From a virus: a stretch of DNA of 45,405 nt. Within the stretch, counting starts at the first letter, position 1. Each line of letters starts with the position of its first letter. The translations under genes were made by a program, and so were the position numbers. This document shows, piece after piece, positions 24,341-42,428 of the stretch. The stretch is from the IMG/VR virus record IMGVR_UViG_3300034106_001777, positions 1 through 45,405 of that record. One strand, written 5' to 3'. The notes under the pieces were generated by a model. That model saw nothing but the letters and a program-made list of their open reading frames with translations. It searched no databases and was not told where the DNA came from.

Positions 24341-24404
24341 TGCACTTTCCTATTTACATTCATTTAGAATCAGTATATTCTAATAATGTAAGGAACGAAA
24401 GGAA
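24341..24404 (+). repeat. 64-base promoter-leader repeat, copy A
   Basis: Matches 26751-26814 at all but about two or three positions, from TGCACTTTCC through the promoter to the ribosome-site leader. Includes the promoter annotated at 24353. Such copies suggest duplication together with an early gene, or selection for a shared regulator. Confidence 0.85.
24353..24381 (+). promoter_or_regulatory. repeated early promoter with inverted repeat over the -10
   Basis: TTTACA (24353-24358), 17-base spacer, TATTCT (24376-24381). TTAGAAT (24364-24370) and ATTCTAA (24377-24383) form a perfect 7-bp inverted repeat with a 6-base centre, covering the -10. Confidence 0.85.
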
Positions 24405-24410
24405 CATCCG

Positions 24411-24596
24411 ATGTTTGTACTCACTCTTGCTGCTGACTACGAAGGTGAAACCCTTCTAGGCGTATACTCGTCTCGTGAACTCGCAGAAGCTGCTTCGCAA
24501 CAGTATCTGGTTGATGCTGAACGTGATCTGCCATCTTATGAGCAGTTCGTTGTTCGTGAAGTCGCAGTTGATGCACCTGCAGAATATCGCTTCTAA
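24411..24596 (+). CDS. small early protein of unknown function
   Basis: 61 residues: a beta start (MFVLTLAADYEGETLLGVYS), then a helix (RELAEAASQQYLVDAE). First gene behind an early-type promoter with the AAGGAACGAAAGGAAC leader. No family recognised; the shape recalls short phage proteins with an ASK-like fold. Confidence 0.7.
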   Translation: MFVLTLAADYEGETLLGVYSSRELAEAASQQYLVDAERDLPSYEQFVVREVAVDAPAEYRF

Positions 24597-24606
24597 GGAG
24601 AATCAG

Positions 24607-24768
24607 ATGTACAAGGTCTACGCACACTACGAAGAGTTCGATCGTTACGGCGATCGACTCGAGTCTTACGACATGTTTAGAGCAGACACAAAAGAAGAGG
24701 TCGAAAAGATCGTTGAAGGTCTCGACAAAGAGTACTATGTTTTTATTGAAATCGCAAAGGTGATCTAA
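24607..24768 (+). CDS. small protein of unknown function
   Basis: 53 residues from the ATG at 24607 behind TAAGGAGAA; the open frame extends upstream into the previous gene without a start. Same general plan as its neighbour (beta start YKVYAHYEEFDRYG, helix KEEVEKIVEGLDKEY). Possibly a distant paralogue of 24411-24596. Confidence 0.65.
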   Translation: MYKVYAHYEEFDRYGDRLESYDMFRADTKEEVEKIVEGLDKEYYVFIEIAKVI

Positions 24769-24769
24769 G

Positions 24770-25135
24770 ATGACTTGGAACCTGTTTCTTGATGACGAAC
24801 GTAACCTCGAGGATGCCACTTGGGCACCTTGGCAGGTTCGCGAGAAGTATCGTAACGAAGAGTGGGTGATCTGCCGCAATTTTTATGAAGTTGTTATAGC
24901 TGTTAGGACGAGAGGAATGCCATCATATATTTCATTTGATCACGATCTTGGTCAAGATGAACCCACCGGTCACGATGTCGCTAAACGTATTATGTATTGG
25001 GATATGAATGATAAGCGCTACCCGCTTCCAGACAACTTTGACTTCTACGTCCACTCACAAAACCCTATCGGCAAAGCAAACATCGAAGGCTTGCTGAACA
25101 ACTATCTGAGGATTATAAATGCTAATCGTATTTGA
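24770..25135 (+). CDS. cREC-like receiver-domain protein (cyclic-phosphate processing family candidate)
   Basis: 121 residues with a receiver-like fold. LFLDDERN (5-12) provides acidic residues, ISFDHDLGQ (54-62) the middle motif and VHSQNPIG (94-101) the last one. This set (DDER, FDHDLG, HSxNPxG) is the signature I know for the cREC family. That family is predicted from gene neighbourhoods to act on cyclic-phosphate RNA ends alongside kinase, phosphatase and ligase. The neighbourhood agrees: it overlaps the Pnkp-type 3'-phosphatase gene by 17 bases, with RNA ligase 1 about 2.4 kb on. Enzymatic activity is inference. It is not a normal response regulator: no DNA-binding domain. Confidence 0.75.
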   Translation: MTWNLFLDDERNLEDATWAPWQVREKYRNEEWVICRNFYEVVIAVRTRGMPSYISFDHDLGQDEPTGHDVAKRIMYWDMNDKRYPLPDNFDFYVHSQNPIGKANIEGLLNNYLRIINANRI

Positions 25136-25565
25136 CTTGGACGGAACACTCGCTAACATCGAGCATCGTTTGGACTATGTTCGTAGCAAGCCTAAGAACT
25201 GGGCTGCATTTGATGCTGGCATTCCGAATGATAAAGTGAACCGATTTGTTGCGGAAGCCTTTCACTCTCTAAGTGCTGCTAGGAACACCATTGTCCTAGC
25301 GAGCGGTCGCAACGAGCGCAGTCGTGAAGCCACAGTCGCATGGTTGACTAAGAACAACCTGCATACGTGGGACAAGCTCTACATGCGTCCCGCAGATGAC
25401 TTCCGTGGTGATGATATTGTAAAGCGTGAAATGCTGGATCAAATCATCTCTGACTTTGGTAAGAAGCCAGACATGGTGTTTGACGATCGTCCTCGCGTGG
25501 TTCGCATGTGGCGTGATGCTGGTATCTTTGTGTTTAACGTCTATCAAGGTGAGGAGGACTTCTAA
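25119..25565 (+). CDS. polynucleotide 3'-phosphatase (HAD), separate Pnkp phosphatase domain
   Basis: 148 residues. HAD motif I is DLDGTLA (6-12) with nucleophile Asp6 and acid/base Asp8; motif II is LASGRNERSR; later VFDDRPRVVRMWRDAG carries the acidic motif IV. KPKNWAAFDAGIPND, LYMRPADDFRGDDIVKREM and the end FNVYQGEEDF follow the T4 PseT phosphatase domain closely. It removes 3'-phosphate or 2',3'-cyclic phosphate so an end can be ligated. Pairs functionally with the kinase at 21402 and the ligase at 27531. Confidence 0.88.
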   Translation: MLIVFDLDGTLANIEHRLDYVRSKPKNWAAFDAGIPNDKVNRFVAEAFHSLSAARNTIVLASGRNERSREATVAWLTKNNLHTWDKLYMRPADDFRGDDIVKREMLDQIISDFGKKPDMVFDDRPRVVRMWRDAGIFVFNVYQGEEDF

Positions 25566-25729
25566 TGGGTAAACATATCAAAACTCAACTGGACTACGAT
25601 CTAATCGAAACTCTTGCACAGGAGTTGCATCGAGTGGATCCAGATAATGCTAAACTGAAACACTATCTGGCAATGGATAACTTTGAAGGTGGAGAGCTGC
25701 GTAAGGCAGTTACAAAGGTGAGCAAATGA
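25565..25729 (+). CDS. small protein of unknown function
   Basis: 54 residues in a TAATG overlap with the phosphatase gene. Helical and charged (LDYDLIETLAQELHRVDPDN); the end FEGGELRKAVTKVSK is basic. No family recognised. Confidence 0.6.
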   Translation: MGKHIKTQLDYDLIETLAQELHRVDPDNAKLKHYLAMDNFEGGELRKAVTKVSK

Positions 25730-25893
25730 TTGACACAGCAGGCGCATATATTCTTATTCTAATCAGCTCTTATAACGGAGCTGCTATTACAACACTGGAA
25801 TTCCCTAATTATGATTCTTGCAAATCTGCTATTACACAGCTTGAGCCGGTGCGCGCCTTGGAAGGATATTGTATTGCAAAGGAAGTAAAATGA
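25726..25893 (+). CDS. small secreted or membrane-anchored protein
   Basis: 55 residues. Hydrophobic start (AGAYILILISSYNGAAI), then FPNYDSCKSAITQLE and a late Cys. The arrangement resembles 9579-9797; the two look like one family of small exported phage proteins. ATGA overlaps on both sides. Confidence 0.6.
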   Translation: MIDTAGAYILILISSYNGAAITTLEFPNYDSCKSAITQLEPVRALEGYCIAKEVK

Positions 25894-26138
25894 CTGACGA
25901 AGAACTGGTGAAGCGGCTGCGGAAGCGGCAAGAGTTTGAGTCTATTGACGGGTACAAGCGGATTGAGTGGAAAGATGAAGATGCTCTCGAAGCCGCCGAC
26001 CGCATCGAAGAACTAGAGGACAATCTGGCGAAGGCCGTCGGGGGTCTTAATGCAATCTATGTTTGGGGAGAAGACACGTATGCAAGAGATATGGCCCGCA
26101 CCACGCTGGGCGAGATTGCGGGAAAGAAGACATGGTAA
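25890..26138 (+). CDS. small helical protein of unknown function
   Basis: 82 residues from the ATG at 25890 (GGAAG 5 bases upstream, ATGA overlap); an in-frame ATG at 25869 has no ribosome site. EELVKRLRKRQEF and a second helix ALEAADRIEELEDNLAK resemble the Lar/Ead-like small proteins of phage accessory regions. Function unknown. Confidence 0.65.
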   Translation: MTDEELVKRLRKRQEFESIDGYKRIEWKDEDALEAADRIEELEDNLAKAVGGLNAIYVWGEDTYARDMARTTLGEIAGKKTW

Positions 26139-26428
26139 GTAACGAAGAACTAAAATCTCCAATTAATGCCTTCCAACAGTTAATGGCAATTACAGCAGAA
26201 GAATCGGGCGAATTAACTCAAGTCTGCATGAAAATTATGCGTAAGTATGATAACATGGAAGATATGTCTAAAGACAAATATAGGTATCAACTAGTTGAAG
26301 AAGCAGGTGATGTGCTTTGTATGATTAAACTAATGGTAGAACACGGCGTCTTGACTAATGATGAATTAGATGATAGAGTAGATGTAAAGCGAAATAAACT
26401 TAAAACTTGGAGTAATTTAATTAAATGA
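26132..26428 (+). CDS. MazG-like nucleotide pyrophosphohydrolase
   Basis: 98 residues from the ATG at 26132, with GGAAAG upstream. The helix pair AITAEESGELTQVCMKIMRK and LVEEAGDVLCMIKLM provides the E-ExxE and ExxD metal-binding residues of the MazG/all-alpha NTP-PPase fold. A single-domain member that could hydrolyse (d)NTPs to NMPs. In phages this is proposed to tune nucleotide pools or to counter (p)ppGpp signalling; the phosphate theme of this genome makes the latter interesting but unproven. Confidence 0.82.
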   Translation: MVSNEELKSPINAFQQLMAITAEESGELTQVCMKIMRKYDNMEDMSKDKYRYQLVEEAGDVLCMIKLMVEHGVLTNDELDDRVDVKRNKLKTWSNLIK

Positions 26429-26736
26429 CCAAATATGTAATCGTAACTGCTATCTCGTCTTACCGTATGCGGTATTGTATTCCTGTAGATGAACTGCAGG
26501 AATTGAACGTTGAAGTTCCTGTCGAAGGACGTGAGATCGAATGGGCTGAAGACTGTGTTACCTGTGACGAGGTAGTAGAGTTTTCTCAGAAGCACGTTGG
26601 CGAGACTATCATCGACTCGGAGATTCTCACCGAAGAACAGATGCTCGAGAAGTTCGACGCTGACAACGACTATCTTAAAGATTGGACTCGTGAGAAGAAG
26701 GTCGAATACGTTCGCAATTGGAAAAATATTTCCTAA
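26425..26736 (+). CDS. phage protein of unknown function
   Basis: 103 residues. Beta-rich start (KYVIVTAISSYRMRYCIP), acidic middle, helical Trp-rich end (WTREKKVEYVRNWKNIS). Overlaps the MazG gene by 4 bases. No family recognised. Confidence 0.65.
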   Translation: MTKYVIVTAISSYRMRYCIPVDELQELNVEVPVEGREIEWAEDCVTCDEVVEFSQKHVGETIIDSEILTEEQMLEKFDADNDYLKDWTREKKVEYVRNWKNIS

Positions 26737-26750
26737 AAAATCGTGGTCAG

Positions 26751-26814
26751 TGCACTTTCCTATTTACATTCGTTTAGAATCAGTGTATTCTAATAATGTA
26801 AGGAACGAAAGGAA
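26751..26814 (+). repeat. 64-base promoter-leader repeat, copy B
   Basis: Near-identical to 24341-24404; contains the promoter annotated at 26763. Confidence 0.85.
26763..26791 (+). promoter_or_regulatory. repeated early promoter with inverted repeat over the -10
   Basis: TTTACA (26763-26768), spacer TTCGTTTAGAATCAGTG, TATTCT (26786-26791). Inverted repeat TTAGAAT/ATTCTAA spans 26774-26793. Confidence 0.87.
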
Positions 26815-26821
26815 ACTGACC

Positions 26822-27028
26822 ATGATGACCTTCAACGAACACAACGAAGCTACCAACTCCATCAAGCCGGTTATGATCCATAAGACTTTCAAAGGTTACA
26901 TGGTCTTTACCCCCGAGGGTCGTCTGCTCGACAACTTCACCTCAGCCGGTCCTTTCGTGGACTTCGAAGCTGCTAAGCGTAACGCCGAAACGAATGTCGG
27001 TATGGCAATGAACTGGAGTGACTTCTAA
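26822..27028 (+). CDS. small early protein of unknown function
   Basis: 68 residues from ATG 26822 (a second ATG follows at 26825). Sequence such as VMIHKTFKGYMVFTPEGRLL and VDFEAAKRNAETNV suggests a small alpha/beta domain. Higher GC and host-like codons than the genes around it, as for other genes behind this promoter type. No family recognised. Confidence 0.7.
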   Translation: MMTFNEHNEATNSIKPVMIHKTFKGYMVFTPEGRLLDNFTSAGPFVDFEAAKRNAETNVGMAMNWSDF

Positions 27029-27117
27029 TGACCGCTGTAATGATCCCCGTCGTCTTTCTTATCGTACTCGTTGTGTACGGTGCAATCGAAGATCTTGTGC
27101 TAGGAAAAGCAGAATGA
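27028..27117 (+). CDS. 29-residue membrane peptide
   Basis: TAATG overlap with the preceding gene and ATGA overlap with the next. One hydrophobic helix (MIPVVFLIVLVVYGAI), then an acidic/basic tail. Too small for a family call; coupled position and clean topology support it. Confidence 0.5.
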   Translation: MTAVMIPVVFLIVLVVYGAIEDLVLGKAE

Positions 27118-27347
27118 CTTGTTCTTCGTGTAACAGTGACTGCAACCAGGGTCGTGCCTGCCCAAGCCGAAGTAGTATTGAAAGAGTAGGCTTCCTTCGG
27201 ATTAAGTGGTCCGGTTTTCATTGGTATCGTGCCGAAGATTTTGAAGAAGTCACTGATGGTTACAGCTATGCAGATGGTGCCATCGTGTTGGGTTTGTTTG
27301 TCTATCGGTATCGTGTATGGCGCAAAGCAAAGATTAAAAATGACTGA
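27114..27347 (+). CDS. small Cys-rich protein
   Basis: 77 residues from the ATGA overlap at 27114; the open frame begins earlier, without a start signal. Five Cys in the first 16 residues (MTCSSCNSDCNQGRACP) form a probable zinc or disulfide cluster, seen at the start of other small phage proteins. Residues 50-66 are hydrophobic (YADGAIVLGLFVYRY) and could be a membrane segment. Confidence 0.65.
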   Translation: MTCSSCNSDCNQGRACPSRSSIERVGFLRIKWSGFHWYRAEDFEEVTDGYSYADGAIVLGLFVYRYRVWRKAKIKND

Positions 27348-27531
27348 CGAAAAACAATACGAAGTGGCGAATGGTCTCTGGATTGGTTCTAAATTTGGAG
27401 ACCTCCGCCGCGAACGAGAGAAGCTTATGAAGAAACTCGTTCAAGATAATGACGCTTCGGTAAAGCCACGAATTCGTGAACTCACTCTTGAGATGACAGA
27501 GTATCTATCGAGTCGAAAAAGGAACACCTAA
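27340..27531 (+). CDS. small helical protein of unknown function
   Basis: 63 residues from ATG 27340, preferred to an in-frame upstream ATG at 27229 inside the previous gene. Charged helix (GDLRREREKLMKKL) and RELTLEMTEYLSSRK. Shares its last base with the RNA-ligase start, so translation is coupled to that gene. Confidence 0.6.
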   Translation: MTDEKQYEVANGLWIGSKFGDLRREREKLMKKLVQDNDASVKPRIRELTLEMTEYLSSRKRNT

Positions 27532-28673
27532 TGCACTACGCCTTTCCTATCATACGCACCATCGAAGACGTCCTTCCTCACATCGAAGGTCGTCCTGAGT
27601 TCGTTGTGGCAGAACGTGAAGGGTATACCATCGTCAACTATGTGGTGGCGATGGCTGACACCTTTGATATGACTGGCCCCGATGACCTTGGTGGCGCGAT
27701 CCGCCGTGAATGCCGTGGTCTTATCTTTGATGCTGATGGTAACCTGATGAGCCGCCCGTTTCACAAGTTCTTCAACGTGAACGAACGTGAAGAGACTCAA
27801 GCACATCGGTTGGATCTCAGTGTTTTGTTTGATCACGTGATCATGGAAAAGCTCGATGGTTCGATGATCCGTCCTATCTTGGTCGATGGTTACCTTCGTC
27901 TTGCTACCAAGATGGGCGTGACTGAAGTGGCTATGCAGGCTGAGACCTGGCTTGCTGCTCAGGACCCTTCGTTGAACGAATGGCTTCGTCAGTGTGTACA
28001 CGACTCGGTGACTCCGATCTTTGAGTGGGTAAGCCCGTTCAACCAGATCGTGTTGGCATACGAAGAAGCAGACCTCGTGTATCTTGGTACTCGTGACAAC
28101 GCAACCGGTGCGTATGTAATGGATAAGTCTTGTCCGTTCTCCACTGTTCCTCGTTATGGTAGTGTAGAAGGCAACCTTGCTGACTACATTAGCCGTCAGC
28201 GCGGTGCAGAAGGTCGTGAGGGTGACATCATTCGTTTTGCTGATGGCCATATGGTTAAGGTCAAGAATGATTGGTATGTGCGTATCCACAAGACTGTGGA
28301 TCGTATCGTGTTCGACCGTAACATCGTTGCTCTTATCCTCAACGAGGAAATGGACGACGTGATGCCGATGCTACCTGTCATTCAGGCAAACCGTGTTCGT
28401 AACTTTGAGGTTCGTTTTGCAGAGCGGCTTCATGCTGTCGTAGAAATCTACGATCGCTACTGGAACACCGTGGTCGCAAGCGGTCTCGACCGCAAGCGTT
28501 ACGCTTTGGAGTGGATGCCGTCCATCAAGGACAACGACTCATTCGCTCCTAACTATGTGTTTGGGCGTTTCGCTGGCCGTGACGGTCGCGAGATGATCCT
28601 TGATCATATCGAAAAGCAATTGTCGTCTAACGTCAAGTGGGATGAATGCGCAACTTGGATGGGAATGAAGTAA
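27531..28673 (+). CDS. rnlA: RNA ligase 1 (T4 Rnl1 family)
   Basis: 380 residues (T4 Rnl1 has 374). RRECRGLIFD and SRPFHKFFNVNE precede the nucleotidyl-transfer motif EKLDGS, with Lys107 as the AMP-accepting residue (Lys99 in T4). Motif IV is PIFEWVSPFN; motif V is DGHMVKVKNDWY. In T4 the enzyme reseals tRNA cut by the host PrrC anticodon nuclease, after Pnkp heals the ends. Pnkp-type kinase (21402) and phosphatase (25119) genes are present. High-GC, host-like codons suggest strong expression. Confidence 0.93.
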   Translation: MHYAFPIIRTIEDVLPHIEGRPEFVVAEREGYTIVNYVVAMADTFDMTGPDDLGGAIRRECRGLIFDADGNLMSRPFHKFFNVNEREETQAHRLDLSVLFDHVIMEKLDGSMIRPILVDGYLRLATKMGVTEVAMQAETWLAAQDPSLNEWLRQCVHDSVTPIFEWVSPFNQIVLAYEEADLVYLGTRDNATGAYVMDKSCPFSTVPRYGSVEGNLADYISRQRGAEGREGDIIRFADGHMVKVKNDWYVRIHKTVDRIVFDRNIVALILNEEMDDVMPMLPVIQANRVRNFEVRFAERLHAVVEIYDRYWNTVVASGLDRKRYALEWMPSIKDNDSFAPNYVFGRFAGRDGREMILDHIEKQLSSNVKWDECATWMGMK

Positions 28674-28916
28674 ATGACTTATTGGGCTACACTATGGTAC
28701 TCTGGTGCGGTCGTGATGCAGCTTGGCTATGAAGGTCAAACTGCCGACGAGTGTTTGTCACTCACGCGAACGATGACGTTAGACCTTGAGCAGAGTTATG
28801 CGGAACCGGAAAATATCGATCCGCAAACTTTGTTCATGTTTCCGACGAATGAATTCGCCGTGAGCTGCGAGATGGAAGAGCTCGGCATCGATGAAAAATA
28901 CGCTAAAGAGAATTGA
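28674..28916 (+). CDS. small acidic protein
   Basis: 80 residues, aromatic start (YWATLWYSGAVVMQLGY), acidic second half with two Cys. It follows RNA ligase immediately. No family recognised; it shares the shape of small exported or membrane-associated phage proteins but lacks a real signal peptide. Confidence 0.6.
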   Translation: MTYWATLWYSGAVVMQLGYEGQTADECLSLTRTMTLDLEQSYAEPENIDPQTLFMFPTNEFAVSCEMEELGIDEKYAKEN

Positions 28917-28919
28917 AAG

Positions 28920-29153
28920 ATGGTCGAATTTGTAGATGTAGCAATTAGCGACCTTGTTTCAGTTACAAAGTTCCTTCGCAGCATCAATCCATCCTTTAAG
29001 GATAAGCTCGTTGTAGGTATTGAAAAACCACAAAGCATGGACCGAAGCGTGGTGTTTCATCTGTCTTCAAAAGAAGACGTAGAAGAAGACATCATCTTTA
29101 TGCTATGTGCCGAATATATTCTTGAACATCCCTATTGGAAACAAAATAAATAG
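28920..29153 (+). CDS. small protein of unknown function
   Basis: 77 residues, alpha/beta, no motif (VSVTKFLRSINPSFKDK, then EDVEEDIIFMLCAEYIL). The late-promoter motif for the next gene (29145) overlaps its last codons. Confidence 0.6.
   Translation: MVEFVDVAISDLVSVTKFLRSINPSFKDKLVVGIEKPQSMDRSVVFHLSSKEDVEEDIIFMLCAEYILEHPYWKQNK
29145..29152 (+). promoter_or_regulatory. T4-type late promoter motif
   Basis: AATAAATA then G, 28 bases before the ATG at 29180, the usual distance for this motif in the window. Confidence 0.5.
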
Positions 29154-29179
29154 TTCTTTAATAGGATGGGAGTGATTGC

Positions 29180-29296
29180 ATGTCTTTGGTACAGGAACTA
29201 GAAGATCTCATAAGAAGAACTGGCTCTCATCACGACAGAGAGATCCTGACGAGAGTTTTAGAACAACTAAGTAAATCTGCAAAAAGCTCTTCGTGA
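29180..29296 (+). CDS. 38-residue helical protein
   Basis: Amphipathic, charged helix (VQELEDLIRRTGSHHDREIL) ending in SKSAKSSS. GGGAG lies about 7 bases upstream of the ATG. Its last codons and stop lie in the left half of the 26-base palindrome at 29286. Confidence 0.5.
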   Translation: MSLVQELEDLIRRTGSHHDREILTRVLEQLSKSAKSSS

Positions 29297-29311
29297 AATT
29301 TCACGAAGAGC
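29286..29311. repeat. perfect 26-base palindrome
   Basis: GCTCTTCGTGAAA (29286-29298) is followed directly by its exact reverse complement (29299-29311), with no spacer. No T run on the + strand; on the reverse strand it is followed by TTTTTGCAGA, so it could terminate reverse transcripts. It overlaps the stop codon of 29180-29296. Confidence 0.85.
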
Positions 29312-29351
29312 GCAAGGTTGTAAGAAAGTAACTTTAGAATAAGAGGGCGAT

Positions 29352-29501
29352 ATGGCAACGAAGCAAGAATATGCAAAATGGTGTATGATGCTAATCGAGG
29401 GTGAGGATTTCATGGTGGATGATATCTTTGAAGCAATGCACGATGATGGTTTTATTGACGAAGCTCAAGAATGGGTATATGATGAAGACGAAGATAACTG
29501 A
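29352..29501 (+). CDS. 49-residue acidic protein
   Basis: Strongly acidic (net charge about -14), with FMVDDIFEAMHDDGFIDEAQ and the end DEDEDN. AGAGGG lies upstream of the ATG. The charge distribution could suit a DNA-mimic inhibitor, but that is speculation. No family recognised. Confidence 0.6.
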   Translation: MATKQEYAKWCMMLIEGEDFMVDDIFEAMHDDGFIDEAQEWVYDEDEDN

Positions 29502-29610
29502 AGCAGAGATGCTGAATGATATTCTTTGGTTGCTTACTATCGTAAAGCAAGTATCCGACTATCGGATTGATAATGAAAAACTAAAAGAGATACGAGAAAA
29601 ATATGAATGA
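29482..29610 (+). CDS. 42-residue helical protein
   Basis: Starts at ATG 29482 inside the previous gene; the longer open frame from 29401 has no ribosome site. Sequence EAEMLNDILWLLTIVKQ then IDNEKLKEIREKYE: an amphipathic helix pair. Weak start signal, so moderate confidence. Confidence 0.5.
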   Translation: MKTKITEAEMLNDILWLLTIVKQVSDYRIDNEKLKEIREKYE

Positions 29611-29776
29611 ATTTGTTGTTCTAGGCATTGTGTTATTGCTCGTAGCTACATTCATTCGTGGCGCGATCATCGTGTTTTCAAAAAATTTTTGGTTAGCGCT
29701 AGCGCTATTCTTTTTAATCCTTCCTCTCTTTGTACTATGGGCATTCGTCGAAGGATTTTTTAACTGGTCGGACTGA
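29603..29776 (+). CDS. two-helix membrane protein
   Basis: 57 residues with two hydrophobic segments (about 4-24, VVLGIVLLLVATFIRGAII, and 29-50, FWLALALFFLILPLFVLWAF). Overlaps the previous gene by 8 bases. Size and topology fit a small holin or another phage membrane protein. A late-promoter motif overlaps its stop codon. Confidence 0.6.
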   Translation: MNEFVVLGIVLLLVATFIRGAIIVFSKNFWLALALFFLILPLFVLWAFVEGFFNWSD

Positions 29777-29782
29777 TAAATA
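29775..29782 (+). promoter_or_regulatory. T4-type late promoter motif before the glutaredoxin gene
   Basis: GATAAATA, 32 bases before the ATG at 29814. Confidence 0.45.
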
Positions 29783-29813
29783 AGTTAGGTATTTCAATAG
29801 GATTGGAGCATAA

Positions 29814-30065
29814 ATGATTACAATATACGGTAAGGACAACTGCCACTGGTGCCAAGAAGCAAAAAAGATCGCCGAGCAATACGACTTAAAGTACGAATAC
29901 AAGAATACCGGGTTTACAGATAACCGCGATGAAATGTTTGAACGTTATCCAGAAGTAAAGACGGTTCCGCAGATCTGGTGGGATGAGAGACACATCGGAG
30001 GATACTCGGAATTCGTAAAAGAGATCGAAGATACACTAGGAAATTACGGCCAGTCAGCTTTTTGA
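29814..30065 (+). CDS. nrdC: glutaredoxin
   Basis: 83 residues, a single thioredoxin-fold domain with the redox pair C10-HW-C13, cis-proline motif KTVPQIW and glutathione-binding IGGYSEF. It shuttles electrons from glutathione to disulfide enzymes; its most likely partner is the phage NrdA with its C-terminal CAAC. CHWC replaces the common CPYC, which should shift its redox potential. In T4 the corresponding gene is nrdC. Confidence 0.93.
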   Translation: MITIYGKDNCHWCQEAKKIAEQYDLKYEYKNTGFTDNRDEMFERYPEVKTVPQIWWDERHIGGYSEFVKEIEDTLGNYGQSAF

Positions 30066-30066
30066 G

Positions 30067-30095
30067 TTGACATTCTGATAGAATCAGTATACTCT
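30067..30095 (+). promoter_or_regulatory. sigma70-like promoter of the repeated family
   Basis: TTGACA (30067-30072), spacer TTCTGATAGAATCAGTA, TACTCT (30090-30095). Keeps AGAATCAGTxTA; the inverted repeat has one mismatch (AGAAT/ACTCT). Confidence 0.78.
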
Positions 30096-30119
30096 AGTAA
30101 ATATCATATGGAGATAGAC

Positions 30120-30362
30120 ATGGCTACCAAGACAGAAGCTTCTGACTATGAGATTCATCTTGTTACTCTTATGAGGGACTATCATCTAACTCTATCGGAA
30201 GCACTCAGCTTTGACTTTGAAGCAGAATGCATCGATATATCAAACGTCTTTGATCCGTGCGAATTTCTTGAAGAAAAACTTGTTGACCTTGAAAAGGTCA
30301 TGTACTACATGATGGTATGGACCGGCCAAGAGCTGGATATTGAACTGAAGAAGATCCAATAA
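30120..30362 (+). CDS. small acidic protein of unknown function
   Basis: 80 residues from ATG 30120, which has GGAG 6 bases upstream; the ATG at 30108 has no ribosome site. Helical, with Cys and acidic residues (LSEALSFDFEAECIDIS). Shares one base with the next gene. Confidence 0.65.
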   Translation: MATKTEASDYEIHLVTLMRDYHLTLSEALSFDFEAECIDISNVFDPCEFLEEKLVDLEKVMYYMMVWTGQELDIELKKIQ

Positions 30363-30706
30363 TGACTATGCATTTGATTCGAGGGATGACTTCCCTCAAC
30401 ACTCGTAAGAGAAAGCCAAAGACCAAAACGAAGCGTATGATCGAAGCCGAAGCGGAACACGCTCGGTTTCTTGCTCGTGCTGGCTATAAAGGAAACTCAA
30501 AGGACTACCGTTACGAGATTCCGGACTACAACACTGGCCCTCGAGTCACAAGCGATGTTGTTGCCGCCAACGGCGCAAAGAAAGCTAGCGTTAAGTACAC
30601 AGGCAATGAGATCCTCGGCATTGCGACCACGCACAAGTCCAACATGGTTCCTATTCGTAAAGACAATAAACAGGCTGCGGTTGATGCAGCGAGTATGAGA
30701 AGATAG
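30362..30706 (+). CDS. basic conserved phage protein
   Basis: 114 residues, strongly basic N-terminus (HLIRGMTSLNTRKRKPKTKT), then EAEHARFLARAGYK and a disordered-looking Gly/Asn end. A pattern I associate with small nucleic-acid-binding-like proteins of T4-like and other phages. No activity known. Confidence 0.65.
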   Translation: MTMHLIRGMTSLNTRKRKPKTKTKRMIEAEAEHARFLARAGYKGNSKDYRYEIPDYNTGPRVTSDVVAANGAKKASVKYTGNEILGIATTHKSNMVPIRKDNKQAAVDAASMRR

Positions 30707-30709
30707 ATA

Positions 30710-32505: not shown

Positions 32506-33072
32506 ATGATAGTTGCTGGTATTGATTATAGTTTGACGAGCCCCGCTATATGCGTTCACGAGGGCGATGAATGGAACGTGAAAAACTGCCGTTTCTACTA
32601 TGTCGTACATCGAGAGAAATCAGTCGTTGTCTCTGGGCAGTTCTATGGAGAGATGTATCAAGAGTATCTTTGCGACGCGCATCGATACGATAACCTCTCA
32701 AAGTGGTCACTCAAGACTCTCACATCAAACAACGTAACTAAGTGCTTCATTGAAGGATACGCCTTCAATGCTGTCGGCCGAGTCTTTCAGATAGCAGAGA
32801 ACACCGGCCAACTAAAGTATCGTCTTTGGAAAGACAAGATTCCCTTTCAAGTGTTTGCGCCACCCGAGATCAAAAAGTTTGCTACCACGAAGGGAAACGC
32901 AAACAAAGAAAAGATGTATGAAAGCTTTTTTGAAGAAACAATGGTTGACATTCGCGTAGAATTGGATATATTAAATAAGAATCAATGGAATCCGGTTTCG
33001 GACATTGTTGATTCCTACTATATCGCAAAGCTAGGCTTCATAAAGGAAAAAGAAAATGTGGATCAAGCGTAA
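32506..33072 (+). CDS. RuvC-like nuclease (Holliday junction resolvase-like)
   Basis: 188 residues, RNase H-like fold. First acidic residue Asp7 in GIDYSLTSPAI, then FIEGYAF (Glu), VFAPPEIKKFATTKGNANKE (the PxxVKKxxTGxGxAxK motif of RuvC) and the C-terminal DIVDSYYIAKLG. It should cut branched DNA; T4 uses gp49 (a different fold) to resolve branches before packaging, so this could be its replacement. GGAG ribosome site and a late-promoter motif suggest late expression. Confidence 0.8.
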   Translation: MIVAGIDYSLTSPAICVHEGDEWNVKNCRFYYVVHREKSVVVSGQFYGEMYQEYLCDAHRYDNLSKWSLKTLTSNNVTKCFIEGYAFNAVGRVFQIAENTGQLKYRLWKDKIPFQVFAPPEIKKFATTKGNANKEKMYESFFEETMVDIRVELDILNKNQWNPVSDIVDSYYIAKLGFIKEKENVDQA

Positions 33073-34398: not shown

Positions 34399-34408
34399 GG
34401 AAACAGTT

Positions 34409-35956: not shown

Positions 35957-35959
35957 TAT
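35931..35959 (+). promoter_or_regulatory. sigma70-like promoter for the RNase H gene
   Basis: TTGACA (35931-35936), 17-base spacer, TAGTAT (35954-35959), inside the end of the preceding gene. No inverted repeat. Confidence 0.55.
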
Positions 35960-35998
35960 AGACTCATAAGATCCAAATATAAGAGAAACACATACAAC

Positions 35999-36859: not shown

Positions 36860-37306
36860 ATGTTACTCTCCCTATCGGAAATTGTAAATAAAGCGGCAGA
36901 ACTAAAGACGAATCAAGAAAAGATCGAATGGCTTCGTAAGAATGATTCTGTTCCACTTCGAACAATACTTAAGAACACCTATGATAAGAGTGTGGAATTC
37001 CTTATTCCAAACACTCCTCCGCCTTGGAAGAAGAACAGCTACATCGGCGTTGAAGGTATGCTTTTGAAAGAAGCAAGACGTCTTCGTATCTTTGTGAAGG
37101 GTGGCGGCTACGATACTCTTAATCAAGTCAAACGCGAAAACCTTTTCATCAGTCTTTTAGAAGATATTGATAATGGTGATGCAGAACTTTTGTGTAAGAT
37201 GATTGCACAAAAACCATTGACAGGTCTGCCTCGAAGTGTTATAGTACAATCGTTCCCAGGATTAATCGAAGGAGTAAAAGAGGAACAAGATGGCAAAGTC
37301 GTTTAA
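36860..37306 (+). CDS. DUF6433-like conserved T4-type phage protein
   Basis: 148 residues, starting directly after the RNase H stop. Features are LKTNQEKIEWLRKNDSVPLR, IPNTPPPWKKNSYIGVEGML and CKMIAQKPLTGLPRSVI. I recognise it as a protein conserved beside RNase H in cyanophages and other T4-like phages. Its role is not known; the position might suggest replication. Confidence 0.8.
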   Translation: MLLSLSEIVNKAAELKTNQEKIEWLRKNDSVPLRTILKNTYDKSVEFLIPNTPPPWKKNSYIGVEGMLLKEARRLRIFVKGGGYDTLNQVKRENLFISLLEDIDNGDAELLCKMIAQKPLTGLPRSVIVQSFPGLIEGVKEEQDGKVV

Positions 37307-37445
37307 GAAATTCCGCGAGCAGTGGGATGATGATTGGAATGACGATTCTGATGACAAGGATCGTGAACCTCAGAAACGTCGCGATCAGCGTCGAAAAAAG
37401 ACCGCTGAGAAATTTTCTCGATTTGATGAAAAGGCTGATGATTAA
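37290..37445 (+). CDS. small charged protein
   Basis: 51 residues with a highly mixed charge (REQWDDDWNDDSDDKDRE then KRRDQRRKKTAEKF). AGAGGAAC ribosome site; overlaps its neighbours by 17 bases and by one base (TAATG). Disordered, perhaps nucleic-acid associated. It appears to belong to the conserved T4-like string RNase H, DUF6433, this protein, HAD. Confidence 0.7.
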   Translation: MAKSFKKFREQWDDDWNDDSDDKDREPQKRRDQRRKKTAEKFSRFDEKADD

Positions 37446-38077
37446 TGTCTAAGGTGATACTATCTGACGTCGATGGTTGTATGGTTGTTTGGAAAAACGA
37501 ATTCAACAATTTCATGGAGAGACACGGTTTCGAAAACGTTGTCGAAAGAGATAATAATATTCATCCGTGGTTGTATCGCGACGACGTATATGAGATTGAA
37601 GATCTCTATGGTATCAGTAAACAGCAAGCTGACTTTATGGTCGATATGTTTAACGAGAGTATCCACCTAGGCCATCTACCTCCTCTGAAAGATGCGATTA
37701 AGTACATTCGAAAGCTACACGAAGAGCACGGATATGTATTCCATTGCATCACTGCCTGTGGTACTCATCATCGCGTACATGATCTTCGCCTCAAGAATCT
37801 TAACGATCTCTTTGGTTCTAATGTGATTAAACGGCTTGTATGTACAGAGTCAAGTAGGGCAAAGAGACCAATCCTTGAAGAGTACAAAGACTCTAGACTC
37901 TACTGGGTAGAGGATAAAGTATCGAATGCTATCATGGGGCACGAACTTGGCCTGCGATCAATTCTCATCAATCATTCATACAACCTAAATTACATTGAAC
38001 ATCCATTTGATGAACCTCAGTACCTAAGAGTAAATAATTGGAAACAAATCTACGATATCGTCGTAGACTCAGAGTAG
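37445..38077 (+). CDS. HAD-superfamily phosphatase (5'-nucleotidase-like)
   Basis: 210 residues. Nucleophile motif LSDVDGCMV (6-14), a helical cap region (VYEIEDLYGISKQQ, LPPLKDAIKYIRKL), motif II ITACGTHHRV and the acidic motif WVEDKVSNAIMG. Resembles phage HAD proteins annotated as 5'(3')-deoxyribonucleotidases; the substrate is unknown. Confidence 0.78.
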   Translation: MSKVILSDVDGCMVVWKNEFNNFMERHGFENVVERDNNIHPWLYRDDVYEIEDLYGISKQQADFMVDMFNESIHLGHLPPLKDAIKYIRKLHEEHGYVFHCITACGTHHRVHDLRLKNLNDLFGSNVIKRLVCTESSRAKRPILEEYKDSRLYWVEDKVSNAIMGHELGLRSILINHSYNLNYIEHPFDEPQYLRVNNWKQIYDIVVDSE

Positions 38078-38083
38078 TACAGG

Positions 38084-38091
38084 AATAAATA
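38084..38091 (+). promoter_or_regulatory. T4-type late promoter motif
   Basis: AATAAATA then C, 71 bases before the ATG at 38162, with a terminator hairpin (38119-38145) in between. Confidence 0.45.
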
Positions 38092-38118
38092 CAATTAAGC
38101 AGATCTATATCATGATGT

Positions 38119-38145
38119 GGCGATCTTGCGGGATCGCCCTTTGTT
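38119..38145 (+). terminator. rho-independent terminator
   Basis: GGCGATC (38119-38125), 6-base loop, GATCGCC (38132-38138), CTTTGTT. Ends the HAD transcript; sits inside the leader that starts at the late motif 38084. Confidence 0.75.
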
Positions 38146-38161
38146 ATTAACAGGAGACTAA

Positions 38162-38395
38162 ATGCCGGTATATAGCTTTAGAGATACTGAAACTAAAGAA
38201 GAATACGAAGCTACAATGCGATACTCTGAGCTTGATGAGTATCTAAAAAACAACTCCCACATAGTACAAATATTTACTCGATTCCCGGGGACAGTTGACT
38301 CGGTACGCATCGGCATTCGCAAGCCCGATGATAATTTTCGTGATGTGTTGAAAAAAGCAAAGGTTCATAAACATAACACAATCAATGACTTTTAA
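38162..38395 (+). CDS. conserved T4-like phage protein (FmdB-like, without zinc ribbon)
   Basis: 77 residues. MPVYSFRDTETKEEYEATM resembles the N-terminus of FmdB-type proteins but without Cys; the end RIGIRKPDDNFRDVLKKAK and KHNTINDF is a pattern I know from T4-like phages of marine hosts. Function unknown. GGAGAC ribosome site. Confidence 0.75.
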   Translation: MPVYSFRDTETKEEYEATMRYSELDEYLKNNSHIVQIFTRFPGTVDSVRIGIRKPDDNFRDVLKKAKVHKHNTINDF

Positions 38396-38411
38396 GTCAT
38401 AAGGAGGCCGC

Positions 38412-39161
38412 ATGGTAGTATCACGTCGTCTATCTCGAAAAGAAAAAAGAAGACATGAAAGAAATCTAGATAATATAGTGAACGTAGTTAATCAGAAGTT
38501 CACAATGAAAAAGATACAACCAATTACTTCAACTCAAGAGATGCTATTCGACGATTATAAACAAGGATACAACATAGCGGCCATCGGAACAGCAGGAACA
38601 GGTAAAACAATGTGTGCTCTCTATCTCGCGTTGAACGACGTGATGGAGACAAAGAACTACGAAAAGGTCATAGTCATTCGATCTGCGGTTCAGACTCGCG
38701 ATCAAGGATTTATGCCAGGTAGTCTTAAGGAAAAAATAGCATACTATGAGACGCCATATATAGATATAGTAAACGATTTGTTTGGAAGATCTGATGGCTA
38801 TAGCATTATGAAACAGCAAGGATGCATCGAATTCATGAGCTCTTCGTTTGTTCGTGGTCTTACTTTCGATAACTCAGTCATCGTAGTTGACGAATGCCAG
38901 AACATGACATACGAAGAAATAAGATCAATTATGACTCGTGTTGGCGAGTCTTCTAAGATTATTTTCTGTGGTGATACGAAGCAGGACGACCTTCGAAATT
39001 CTAAGAACCGATTGGATCGCTCTGGACTATCGAGCTTTATCAATGTGTTGAAAGAGATAAGAGAGTTTAAAACGATAGAATTCACAGTCGATGACATCGT
39101 AAGATCTGGTCTCGTGAAGTCGTTTATCCTCGCAGAAGAAAAAGTTTTAGACTACGCGTAA
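38412..39161 (+). CDS. phoH: PhoH-like ATPase
   Basis: 249 residues. Walker A GTAGTGKT (59-66), Walker B VIVVDECQNM, and the PhoH marks IRSAVQTRDQGFMPGSLKEK and IFCGDTKQDDL. A basic N-terminal extension (SRRLSRKEKRRHER) precedes the domain. PhoH is frequent in marine phages, including those with pstS, but its role is not settled (RNA-associated ATPase or Pho-regulon protein). No Pho box is visible near it, so a link to phosphate is by name and distant context only. Confidence 0.9.
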   Translation: MVVSRRLSRKEKRRHERNLDNIVNVVNQKFTMKKIQPITSTQEMLFDDYKQGYNIAAIGTAGTGKTMCALYLALNDVMETKNYEKVIVIRSAVQTRDQGFMPGSLKEKIAYYETPYIDIVNDLFGRSDGYSIMKQQGCIEFMSSSFVRGLTFDNSVIVVDECQNMTYEEIRSIMTRVGESSKIIFCGDTKQDDLRNSKNRLDRSGLSSFINVLKEIREFKTIEFTVDDIVRSGLVKSFILAEEKVLDYA

Positions 39162-39176
39162 AGAGGAGAATTACGT

Positions 39177-39482
39177 ATGCCAGCGGTTGCCGTCTGTACT
39201 GTTGATACGATCACCACCGGTCACGGTTGTGACGGCACCGCTCTCATACAAGGTTCTCTTCAGACAAAGGTTACGATAGGTGGAAAGAGAGTCGCTGTGC
39301 AAGGTGATGCAATTGCACCTCATACTATTAATGCGGGACCAGTTTGTGTCCCGCATTCTTCTGTTATCAATGCGGGTTCTTCAAAAGTAACGATAGCAGG
39401 AATACCGGTTGCGCGTGTAGGAGACTCGGCCGACGCTGGGTCTGTGGCAACTGGGTCAGGTAAAGTATCATGCGGAGGGTGA
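39177..39482 (+). CDS. PAAR-motif spike-tip protein
   Basis: 101 residues, Gly/Val/Ala/Thr-rich beta repeats with TTGHGCDG, TINAGPVCVPHSSVI and PVARVGDSADAGS. The His/Cys set should bind the metal at the tip of a cone, as in PAAR proteins that cap the VgrG/gp5 spike (T4 gp5.4). It points the tail needle during membrane puncture. Next to non-structural genes, as in some T4-like relatives. Strong AGAGGAGAA ribosome site. Confidence 0.88.
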   Translation: MPAVAVCTVDTITTGHGCDGTALIQGSLQTKVTIGGKRVAVQGDAIAPHTINAGPVCVPHSSVINAGSSKVTIAGIPVARVGDSADAGSVATGSGKVSCGG

Positions 39483-40154
39483 ATGTTTCAACACGTAGAT
39501 CATGGGTTGGTGCTTCCTGTTATCACTAGGAAGACTACCGAAAGTGGAAGAAAGTATTATACGCCAGAAGGCAATGCGTATCCGTCAATCACGACGGTTT
39601 TGTCTGTTATGGACAAAGATGGCCTAATCGAATGGCGTAAGAGAGTCGGCGAAGAAGAAGCGAACCGTATCTCTAAACAAGCCGCAGGGCGAGGTACCGC
39701 AGTACACAAGCTAGCCGAGGACTATCTCAATAACGAACCAGAATGGCAAAAAGATCATATGCCGGGGAACCTATTCTCGTTCAATCAGATCAAAAAGATA
39801 CTTGATGAAAGAGTAAACAATGTATGGTTCCAAGAAACCTTTCTATACAGCGATAGCCTAAAGTGCGCAGGTCAGACTGACTGTATAGCCGAGTTCGACG
39901 GCGAACTCTCTATCATAGATTTCAAAACATCAAGAAAAGAAAAGAAGAAGGAATGGATCCTTGGGTATTTCATTCAGGCTGCGTTCTATGCGGCTGCTTT
40001 CTACGAGATGACTGGCATACCTATCAAGCAAGCTGCCATAGTCATAATGGTTGACGACTCAGAGCCACAAGTCTTTAAAGTCAACACATACGATTACTTG
40101 CCAGAGTTCTTAAAGGTTCGAAAAAAGTACAAACTTCTTCATGAAAACGGTTGA
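39483..40154 (+). CDS. PD-(D/E)XK-type nuclease
   Basis: 223 residues, start just after the PAAR stop. GRGTAVHKLAEDYL gives the N-terminal Glu; CAGQTDCIAEFDGELSIIDFKTS contains the catalytic D-x-n-(D)xK core; GYFIQAAFYAAAF is the Q-containing helix of RecB/Cas4-like nucleases. Likely a 5'-3' or recombination exonuclease used in phage replication or host DNA breakdown. A promoter overlaps its stop codon. Confidence 0.82.
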   Translation: MFQHVDHGLVLPVITRKTTESGRKYYTPEGNAYPSITTVLSVMDKDGLIEWRKRVGEEEANRISKQAAGRGTAVHKLAEDYLNNEPEWQKDHMPGNLFSFNQIKKILDERVNNVWFQETFLYSDSLKCAGQTDCIAEFDGELSIIDFKTSRKEKKKEWILGYFIQAAFYAAAFYEMTGIPIKQAAIVIMVDDSEPQVFKVNTYDYLPEFLKVRKKYKLLHENG

Positions 40155-40179
40155 CATTCGTTCAGAATCAGTATAGACT
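40151..40179 (+). promoter_or_regulatory. sigma70-like promoter of the repeated family
   Basis: TTGACA (40151-40156), spacer TTCGTTCAGAATCAGTA, TAGACT (40174-40179). The right inverted-repeat arm is degenerate. It starts in the stop codon of the nuclease gene. Confidence 0.78.
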
Positions 40180-40206
40180 GTTCTATATCAAACGAAAGGA
40201 TACACC

Positions 40207-40437
40207 ATGTACGTCGCCGAACTCGACATCTCCGCCGAAGCCTCGCAAGAATCCATTCATCAGTTCGCAACCGAACACGGCTGCACCGCTCTTCTTATCA
40301 TGGAATACGGCCCTGCCGGCGGTAACCCTCTCTATCAGTTCTCGTCTAACAGTCAAGACTGCCTCGAGGAACTCGTCTCTCAAGTACTAGGTGACATCGA
40401 CTATCAACATATCCTCGACGCAATCCGAGAAATCTAA
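40207..40437 (+). CDS. small early protein of unknown function
   Basis: 76 residues, acidic: VAELDISAEASQESIHQFA, LLIMEYGPAGGNPLY and LEELVSQVLGDIDYQHI. High GC and host-like codons. The alternative frame from 40151 through this region is rejected because this one has AAAGGA upstream and its own promoter. No family recognised. Confidence 0.7.
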   Translation: MYVAELDISAEASQESIHQFATEHGCTALLIMEYGPAGGNPLYQFSSNSQDCLEELVSQVLGDIDYQHILDAIREI

Positions 40438-40444
40438 AAAGTAG

Positions 40445-40473
40445 TTGACATTCGTTTAGAATCAGTGTATTCT
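40445..40473 (+). promoter_or_regulatory. repeated early promoter with inverted repeat over the -10
   Basis: TTGACA (40445-40450), spacer TTCGTTTAGAATCAGTG, TATTCT (40468-40473). TTAGAAT/ATTCTAA at 40456-40475. Leader identical to the copy at 24353 as far as GGAAC. Confidence 0.88.
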
Positions 40474-40502
40474 AATAATGTAAGGAACGAAAGGAACCTC
40501 CT

Positions 40503-40862
40503 ATGAAATTCTCCAAGTTTGACCGTACCAATCTGAATGCTCTTCGTGCCGAGATGGCCGTTCTTCTGAATAAGTACGGCGTTGACTCGAACCTTGAGTT
40601 TGAAGTCGGCAATATGAAGTTCAGCGCGAACGAAGTTGAGATTAAAGTCAAAGCGAAGGTCAAAGGTGCAAAGACTCTCACCAATGTGATCCTTGAGTCT
40701 CGTGTAGCTGCTCTCGGCATCAAGCTGAAGAATAAAGCAGGTGACGAGCTCGTTGACTATAACACTCGCGCCCCGAAGATGCCGTTCGTCTATCGTAACG
40801 CTGCAGACGGTAAGCTCTATAAGTGCACCGAAATGATGACTAAGATCCGCTTCGCAGCTTAA
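40503..40862 (+). CDS. early protein of unknown function
   Basis: 119 residues, very basic. FSKFDRTNLNALRAEMAVLL is a helical start; LEFEVGNMKFSANEVEIKVK looks like a beta hairpin repeat; the second half is Lys-rich. Strong promoter and host-like codons indicate high early expression. The charge suggests nucleic-acid or RNA-polymerase binding (inference). No family recognised. Confidence 0.7.
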   Translation: MKFSKFDRTNLNALRAEMAVLLNKYGVDSNLEFEVGNMKFSANEVEIKVKAKVKGAKTLTNVILESRVAALGIKLKNKAGDELVDYNTRAPKMPFVYRNAADGKLYKCTEMMTKIRFAA

Positions 40863-40876
40863 TCGAAAGAAACATC

Positions 40877-41077
40877 ATGAAATACGCAATCGTTCTCTTT
40901 GCTTTGACTATGTCGGCTTGCTCTTCGATGGACCCCGAGCTGAAAGCTCATCTTGAAGCCGAAGCTGACTTTGCTCGCCATCAGTATCATACTCAGCAAG
41001 CTCATGAAAAGGATTACGATCCTGAATATGTAGACGACTGCTACTATCACGAAGAACTCGTCTGTGAATTCGAATGA
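40877..41077 (+). CDS. small lipoprotein
   Basis: 66 residues. Signal peptide with lipobox MSACSS (Cys15), then an acidic, His-rich mature part (HRQY-like, EADFARHQYHTQQ, YDPEYVDDCYYHEELVCEF). Lipid anchored, function unknown; superinfection exclusion is a typical role for such early lipoproteins but is not shown here. ATGA overlap with the next gene. Confidence 0.72.
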   Translation: MKYAIVLFALTMSACSSMDPELKAHLEAEADFARHQYHTQQAHEKDYDPEYVDDCYYHEELVCEFE

Positions 41078-41277
41078 CGCTGTTTCAGTCTAAGTCAATC
41101 AATACGAATGGACACCAGTTCATTGGATATGTCTGGAAGTTTCGTGGATGCCAAGTAGAGATGCATGCGAATGGCTTTTCTTGTAACTGCAAGAAGCGCC
41201 ACTTTGCAAAGTGCAATCACGTAAAGAGCGTAGAACTTGGCATTCTAGGTGTAAATCAGATTAAGTATAAACTATAG
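41074..41277 (+). CDS. SWIM-type zinc-finger protein
   Basis: 67 residues. CNCKKRHFAKCNH fits the SWIM pattern CxCx(n)CxH, preceded by a beta-rich half (QFIGYVWKFRGCQVEMHANG). SWIM fingers bind DNA or proteins and are often part of recombination or helicase partners; here the finger is a free small protein. AATGA overlap with the lipoprotein gene. Confidence 0.72.
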   Translation: MTLFQSKSINTNGHQFIGYVWKFRGCQVEMHANGFSCNCKKRHFAKCNHVKSVELGILGVNQIKYKL

Positions 41278-41287
41278 AGGAAATCCT

Positions 41288-41484
41288 ATGTTCACGACTA
41301 TTGTTGCATGGATCGCATTTGTTGTTGGATCTTTTTTATCTTCATTGCGCTATTGGACAGCATTTTTCAGTTTACAGTAAGTGACTTTCAGCGTAGAATG
41401 AAAATACGTAAGCATTATTTCACTGGGCGGATGGGGTTCATTCTCATTGCCTGGTTCTTGTCAGGAATGCATCTTTTTGGATAA
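41288..41484 (+). CDS. two-helix membrane protein with probable -1 frameshift
   Basis: Frame 0 encodes 30 residues (MFTTIVAWIAFVVGSFLSS...) and stops at 41378-41380. At TTTTTTA (41332-41338), in slippery phase T_TTT_TTA, a -1 shift continues for 48 residues to the stop at 41482-41484, giving about 65 residues: a first helix joined smoothly to IFIALLDSIFQF, a basic loop, a second helix FILIAWFLSGMHLFG. The joined product has the shape of common two-helix phage membrane proteins, and no other gene occupies 41381-41490. A programmed shift or a one-T deletion (sequence error or mutation) explains it equally. AGAGGAAA ribosome site. Confidence 0.62.
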
Positions 41485-41490
41485 ATCATC

Positions 41491-42048
41491 ATGAATCTTT
41501 TTATTTTGGATAAAGACCCAGTTGTCGCAGCGCAACTGCAGTGTGATAAGCACGTAGTCAAAATGATCGTGGAGTCGGCACAGATGTTGTCGACTGCGCA
41601 TCGTATGCTTGATGGTGTTCTTAAACGTGCGCCATCGAAGTCGGGTAAGACGATGTCAAAGCATTGGACTCTTCCTGATGAGCGCGAACATATTCTATAC
41701 AAAGCAGTTCACATGGCGCACCCTTGTACCGTATGGACTACTCAGTCGAATAACAACTACACTTGGCACTGGGTTCACTTCGCTGCTCTCTGCGACGAGT
41801 ACACCTATCGTTATGGCAAGGTTCATTCGACTGACAAACTTCTTCGCGAAAAGCTGAAGGAACTACCACGAAACATTCCTATCGGATATCTAACTCAGCA
41901 GCCGCTCGCAATGAAAGCTAATCCTGAGTGCATGTTCCCTAACGATCCTGTTCGTTCTTATCGAGAGTTCTATCAGACGAAACAAGCAAGGTTCAAAATG
42001 GTGTGGACTAAACGTGATATCCCTGAGTGGTTTAAAGTAGCAGCTTAA
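41491..42048 (+). CDS. conserved phage protein of unknown function
   Basis: 185 residues. Sequence FILDKDPVVAAQLQCDKHVVKM, ESAQMLSTAHRMLDG, YKAVHMAHPCTVWTTQSNNNY and CDEYTYRYGKVH are hallmarks of a protein I know across many phage types. His and Cys residues are regularly spaced and may bind metal. No activity known. Ends one base inside the next gene. Confidence 0.75.
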   Translation: MNLFILDKDPVVAAQLQCDKHVVKMIVESAQMLSTAHRMLDGVLKRAPSKSGKTMSKHWTLPDEREHILYKAVHMAHPCTVWTTQSNNNYTWHWVHFAALCDEYTYRYGKVHSTDKLLREKLKELPRNIPIGYLTQQPLAMKANPECMFPNDPVRSYREFYQTKQARFKMVWTKRDIPEWFKVAA

Positions 42049-42347
42049 TGAGATACGCGATTGCAGAAGAAGATCTAGGTTTCTTTCTGGGCGCGTTCCA
42101 GAAGTATGGAATCTTTGCTAAGAATGATGTCATAGGTCTCTCAAAGGCAATCGCATTTGATACCGAGGATGAAGCGAATCTATACATCGACGATTTTCTC
42201 GGACGAGATCGTGGAGTCTGGAAAGTAATTCCGGTCGACACGAAAGACGAATACGTTAGTGTCGTATACCTAGTGAAGAATGGTTATGGAAAGTATACTC
42301 ATAAGATGATTGATTTCATTCCTATGACTTCTACAACTATGCACTAA
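42048..42347 (+). CDS. small protein of unknown function
   Basis: 99 residues: EEDLGFFLGAFQKYGIFA helix, LSKAIAFDTEDEANLYIDDF, then YGKYTHKMIDF. Alpha/beta, soluble. TAATG overlap with its predecessor. Followed by 80 bases holding the strong promoter for the DUF932 gene. Confidence 0.65.
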   Translation: MRYAIAEEDLGFFLGAFQKYGIFAKNDVIGLSKAIAFDTEDEANLYIDDFLGRDRGVWKVIPVDTKDEYVSVVYLVKNGYGKYTHKMIDFIPMTSTTMH

Positions 42348-42363
42348 TTTTTTCATTTAATGG

Positions 42364-42392
42364 TTGACATTCGTTTAGAATCAGTGTATTCT
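42364..42392 (+). promoter_or_regulatory. repeated early promoter with inverted repeat over the -10
   Basis: TTGACA (42364-42369), spacer TTCGTTTAGAATCAGTG, TATTCT (42387-42392). TTAGAAT/ATTCTAA at 42375-42394. The leader diverges after AAGGAACA. Confidence 0.88.
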
Positions 42393-42428
42393 AATAATGT
42401 AAGGAACACAAACTGAAAGGTCTACAGA

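Follow-up and report, generated by a model that had tools for sequence, protein, structure and literature searches.

A GANTC-containing candidate regulatory word in early-type promoters of large uncultured T4-superfamily phages

The window analysed here is a 45,405-nucleotide stretch of viral DNA (IMG/VR virus record IMGVR_UViG_3300034106_001777, positions 1 to 45,405) that carries a family of sigma70-type promoters with a conserved spacer. Judged from the sequences, what is conserved is a single asymmetric word, GAATCRGT, which contains a GANTC site and lies between the -35 and -10 elements. GAATC is one form of GANTC, the site that the CcrM methylase modifies in Alphaproteobacteria. By analogy with host promoters, we consider with moderate confidence that these putative early promoters are tuned to host GcrA, a sigma70 cofactor of Alphaproteobacteria, and that they are possibly gated by methylation.

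Each promoter consists of a TTKACA -35 element, a 17-bp spacer, and a TAnnnT -10 element, followed by a Shine-Dalgarno sequence and a start codon. The sequence TTKACATTy-N4-[AC]GAATC[AG]GTnTAnnnT is invariant across the family, and GAATC lies at about -21 to -17 when the -10 element is taken to start at -12. A 217,966-base IMG/VR contig (G001) overlaps the window and has its four perfect palindromic copies of the promoter (see below) at identical spacings (1919, 13,682, and 2410 bases). At least 18 promoters of this type are present in G001, which has 18 sites of TTKAC-N9-GANTC-N4-TAnnnT. The pattern TTGAC-N9-GANTC-N4-TAnnnT gave 55 matches in eight contigs with the promoter, and the reversed control pattern gave none. 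The existence of a family of early-type sigma70 promoters, which a previous reading of the window (hereafter, the sequence-only reading) had proposed, is thus supported far beyond chance. In seven whole contigs, GANTC was found at one fixed offset (index 14 of the -35/-10 frame) in 66 sites, with 0 to 2 sites at each other offset, and all 66 sites were GAATC. The base before GAATC was A or C in 36 of 37 non-redundant promoters, and the base after it was A or G in all 37, followed by GT; both flanking positions were free in the search pattern. With a tighter pattern, at least 118 stretches with GAATC were found in IMG/VR. In two contigs (G015 and G016), GAATC is shifted 1 bp towards the -10 element (the TTGACATT-N2-GTTTAGAATCAGTTATATT type), and the total spacing is kept.

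Such conservation might require no regulator at all, if these were strong early promoters whose spacer word was optimised for host RNA polymerase and spread by duplication. The near-consensus -35 element, the A/T-rich upstream tract, and the 17-bp spacing fit this explanation, as does the near identity of some copies (97% over 66 bp for the pair at 24353 and 26763). However, we regard it as unlikely. Eight spacer bases are nearly invariant across diverged contigs, also at orthologous promoters of the topoisomerase and DUF932 genes, where the other spacer bases vary; this bears out the view of the sequence-only reading that the conservation exceeds the needs of sigma70. TATAAT was the -10 element in 1 of 81 GAATC promoters; among the other promoters of these contigs, it was found in 15 of 128 (p = 0.006). 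A weak -10 element argues against selection for simple strength. Moreover, the word is almost absent from bacteria: the tighter pattern gave nine scattered matches in 84,980 bacterial genomes, none with a GcrA match. A promoter word borne by the hosts was also rejected on these counts.

Palindromic copies in the window

The exact sequence TTAGAAT-N6-ATTCTAA occurs in the window at 24364, 26774, 40456, and 42375, where the sequence-only reading had placed it, and a pattern search of the window found no others even at two mismatches. Each copy spans a promoter with TTTACA or TTGACA as the -35 element, a 17-bp spacer, and TATTCT as the -10 element. The promoters of the window and the open reading frames (ORFs, lengths in amino acids, aa) behind them are as follows.

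24353..24381, plus strand: GAATC promoter, palindromic (24364-24383); -35 TTTACA at 24353-24358, GAATC at 24367-24371, -10 TATTCT at 24376-24381; drives a 61-aa ORF (24411-24596)
26763..26791, plus strand: GAATC promoter, palindromic (26774-26793); GAATC at 26777-26781; drives a 68-aa ORF (26822-27028)
40445..40473, plus strand: GAATC promoter, palindromic (40456-40475); GAATC at 40459-40463; drives a 119-aa ORF (40503-40862)
42364..42392, plus strand: GAATC promoter, palindromic (42375-42394); GAATC at 42378-42382; drives a DUF932 protein gene (42429-43385)
8604..8632, plus strand: GAATC promoter, non-palindromic; -10 TAGATT; drives a 116-aa ORF (8663-9013)
30067..30095, plus strand: GAATC promoter, non-palindromic; -10 TACTCT; drives an 80-aa ORF (84 aa from an upstream ATG) that ends at 30362
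40151..40179, plus strand: GAATC promoter, non-palindromic; -10 TAGACT; drives a 76-aa ORF (40207-40437)
7037..7065, plus strand: GAATC promoter, newly found; TTTACATTGTCCCCGAATCGGTATACTGT; drives a 64-aa ORF (7098-7292)
12030..12058, plus strand: degenerate relative with GAAAT for GAATC; upstream of an ORF at 12088
32945..32972, plus strand: degenerate relative with GAATT and a 16-bp spacer; upstream of an ORF at 33056

The last three had been overlooked by the sequence-only reading. That reading described a leader almost identical in the four perfect copies; three of them share AAGGAACGAAAGGAAC, and the copy at 42375 has AAGGAACACAAACTG instead. It also described the copies at 8604, 30067, and 40151 (their -35 start positions) as keeping the spacer core, which they do, and as having a damaged right arm, which is probably wrong in direction. 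In other contigs, orthologues of the 40151 copy have AAACTGT or AGGCTGT at the position of the right arm; therefore, the 40151 site was probably never palindromic.

The sequence-only reading took the repeat for the operator of a dimeric regulator, with strong and weak sites, or for a hairpin that melts the promoter across the -10 element. Apart from the four perfect copies themselves, this proposal is favoured by the predicted folding of two of them as single strands, at -5.4 and -3.8 kcal/mol with outer ACATT/AATGT arms. However, the hairpin is formed by the palindromic copies only, and the two arms are not conserved together. Perfect arms were present in 11 of 165 unique promoters (5.5 expected by shuffling, p 0.007), in 4 promoters after removal of similar copies (1.7 expected, p 0.05), and in 2 of 66 non-redundant promoters (0.6 expected, p 0.12). 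As the association vanishes when similar copies are removed, the palindrome signal reflects shared descent. In the 66 non-redundant promoters, the arm pairs 14-27 and 15-26 were complementary in 29% and 35%, respectively, and the ATTCTAA block was also found after the non-complementary left arms TCCGAAT, GTCGAAT, and ACAGAAT.

Orthologous promoters gave the same picture: across related contigs, the right arm varies freely and GAATCAGT stays. For the DUF932 gene behind the 42375 copy, 80 relatives were fetched by protein alone, with the motif unused. A GAATC promoter was present at the standard offset in 12 of 46 distinct upstream regions; among these, the right arm has been lost and GAATCAGT retained in the promoters of L250, L252, L254, and L303. 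At the topoisomerase gene, the GAATC promoters comprise four distinct sequences that vary elsewhere in the spacer, with no palindrome in any of them. On the permutations of non-redundant promoters and the orthologous sites, we reject the palindrome as a functional unit and consider a dimer operator or a melting hairpin very improbable. The palindrome results from the meeting of the GAATC word with the TATTCTAA variant of the -10 element. What survives of the proposed operator network is its regulator, as a protein that reads the word is probable.

In L050, L109, and their relatives, a second, divergent GAATC-type sequence (GTCTATACTGATTCT) is present upstream of the topoisomerase promoter in the opposite direction. 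What first looked like a small RNA downstream of one promoter type was the topoisomerase leader.

The phages and their probable hosts

G001 is a large uncultured phage of the T4 superfamily. It encodes the T4-type portal protein gp20, the large terminase subunit (TerL) gp17, gp23, and gp43. Its portal and TerL proteins are 54% and 59% identical, respectively, to those of Sinorhizobium phages phiM12 and phiN3, and its DNA polymerase is 45% identical to that of cyanophages. All motif contigs in which a T4 portal gene is present fall into one clade of the superfamily. The window contains genes for ribonucleotide reductase, thymidylate synthase, DNA ligase, RNA ligase, a Dda-like helicase, RNase H, and PhoH. 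In G001, the structural block is free of the GAATC promoters, which occur mostly on the strand that carries the nucleotide-metabolism genes. Most of them precede small ORFs without a known family, and others precede the DUF932 and topoisomerase genes. Late-type sites (TATAAATA) are also present in the phage. This gene content and position suggest that the GAATC promoters are early (pre-replicative). G001 also has 32 predicted tRNA genes arrayed in about 19 kb (L022 and L023), and its reverse complement at 176.6-181.0 kb contains a 564-aa ORF with the look of a curlin-type repeat protein and a 681-aa ORF resembling a CHASE2 and cyclase protein, both judged by eye from sequence only.

The hosts are probably alphaproteobacteria. 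By portal and TerL, the closest isolated phages infect Sinorhizobium. In addition, the alphaproteobacterial type of transfer-messenger RNA (alpha_tmRNA, RF01849) was detected in 7 of about 14 larger contigs with the promoter (G001, G004, G015, G016, G019, G061, and G062); about 15 relatives that lack GAATC promoters, which are smaller contigs, gave no match. Under a strict split by standard offset, the association of this RNA with the promoter had a p of 0.09. The G001 match (contig positions 45429-46068) is marginal, at 50.5 bits versus a threshold of 50, and the RF01849 search is not fully specific, as Stenotrophomonas phage DLP6 also gives a partial match. G004 has a clear permuted alpha tmRNA (L041:18424-18787) with the predicted tag ANENFAPKAFALAA.

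Candidate readers of the word

GcrA is an activator of sigma70 promoters that contain a methylated GANTC site as TGATTCG or YGAKTCK [PMC7987155]. Between the -10 and -35 elements, GANTC is tied to one timed activation class in Caulobacter [PMC4287350]. Mutation of GANTC weakens several GcrA promoters by 60-80% [PMC3667746]. GcrA, which has a flexible linker, binds sigma region 2 (sigma2) and promotes formation of the open complex [PMC7403470]. The reverse complement of the phage word, CYGATTCK, fits YGAKTCK with a flank degeneracy identical to that of the published motif, and the phage GAATC lies between the -35 and -10 elements, as GANTC does where it acts in Caulobacter. The rarity of TATAAT as the -10 element is the weakness expected of activator-dependent promoters, and the 1-bp shift of GAATC in G015 and G016 is consistent with the flexible linker.

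We propose that host GcrA would bind MGAATCRG (CYGATTCK on the reverse strand), contact sigma region 2, and speed promoter opening, so that a weak -10 element would be used efficiently. If GcrA prefers CcrM-methylated GANTC here as in the host, methylation acquired by virion DNA in the previous host would mean that its early promoters are already licensed on arrival, and phage replication would then dilute the methyl mark and help to shut these promoters off. This full version, in which GcrA reads only CcrM-methylated GAATC, the mark is inherited from the previous host, and replication turns the promoters off, is tentative, and we would sooner doubt it than rely on it.

Several observations weigh against GcrA as the reader. 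The central base is A in 164 of 165 unique sites; the family contigs have one GAGTC and one GATTC, and only five stretches in IMG/VR have another central base, versus the at least 118 with GAATC. A pure methylation reader should tolerate other central bases, and YGAKTCK would allow GACTC. Among single-base variants in the family loci, those that break GANTC are at least as frequent as those that preserve it. The GcrA motif includes neither the conserved GT that follows the site nor the ATTy that follows the -35 element, and no extended motif was seen for Brevundimonas GcrA [PMC7987155]. The alphaproteobacterial hosts are predicted from phage genes. Searches with PF07750, PF01555, and PF02086 found no GcrA or CcrM/methylase gene in the motif contigs searched; therefore, the proteins of the host would be used. 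Among named phages that infect alphaproteobacteria, the element is absent from phiM12, phiN3, phiM9, P10VF, Cr30, CcrColossus, Atu_ph07, PAU, HTVC008M, and RHph_I1_18, and twelve named phages gave one chance-like match of TTGAC-N9-GANTC-N4-TAnnnT, in syn9. Sinorhizobium, the host of phiM12, is from a group that has GcrA and CcrM, yet this sister phage lacks the element.

A clade-specific factor encoded by the phages might instead read GAATCRGT asymmetrically, as an activator or a later repressor, with the match to GANTC a coincidence. This would explain the fixed central base and the limitation of the element to one clade whose nearest isolated relatives lack it. In addition, the conserved spacer word differs in three sister contigs (G056, G059, and G065): it is TTAAAyGAT, and the -10 element is TATAAT, as if the reader had changed. 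The spacer word can therefore switch between lineages, which is compatible with a phage-encoded reader. However, 20 candidate genes of G001 are shared with other GAATC contigs and absent from contigs without the promoter, and no recognisable DNA-binding protein was found among those scanned, although the contigs are in many cases incomplete and small proteins match no Pfam family. Moreover, by our own arithmetic, an arbitrary 9-bp word would hold YGAKTCK in either orientation in an estimated <1% of cases. We consider a phage factor the main alternative to GcrA, though rather unlikely. The repeated promoter of the three sister contigs is TTGACATTyGTTyTTAAAyGATrTATAAT (L401-L404 and L409-L417).

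Comparison with known systems

The promoters resemble the GcrA/CcrM promoters of Alphaproteobacteria (mipZ, podJ P2, and ctrA P1 of Caulobacter) in being sigma70 promoters with GANTC between the -35 and -10 elements and flanks that fit YGAKTCK; the activator would contact sigma region 2. They differ in being of the phage early type, in many copies at one fixed offset, and almost always GAATC, and in having two further conserved parts, the GT and the -35 flank; their dependence on GcrA and their methylation are predictions. As in T4, many sigma70 promoters outside the late gene block are conserved beyond the two hexamers, whereas T4 itself lacks such a GANTC element and the promoters described here have a weak -10 element and a nearly invariant spacer word.

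The PeSL (promoter early stem-loop) mobile cassettes of T4-type phages, which Arbiol et al. are said to have described in 2010, reportedly place near-identical early promoters at several intergenic sites. The GAATC promoters are repeated in a similar manner, but most copies have no clear terminator stem-loop directly upstream: most of the ten copies in the window lack a strong hairpin with a T-run in the 60 nt upstream, and a PeSL cassette was rejected.

Depletion of GANTC is known in pelagiphages [PMC9516812], and Pelagibacter phage HTVC008M (L208-L215) has 43 GANTC sites versus 441 expected. As in pelagiphages, the genomes described here may be shaped by the methylation mark of the host at GANTC. 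Unlike in pelagiphages, GANTC is at about its normal frequency and is placed in promoters rather than avoided; avoidance was rejected, as the depletion was only mild and not special to GANTC.

In the literature searched, we found no description of phage early promoters under the control of host GcrA or methylation. If GcrA is the reader, the phage would use an epigenetic cell-cycle switch of its host as the signal to start infection, and infection would be tied to the cell-cycle stage of the host and to an early-to-late timer linked to replication. Even without GcrA, the promoter word is clade-wide and marks the putative early regulon of T4-like phages that are widespread and uncultured; such words switch between sister lineages.

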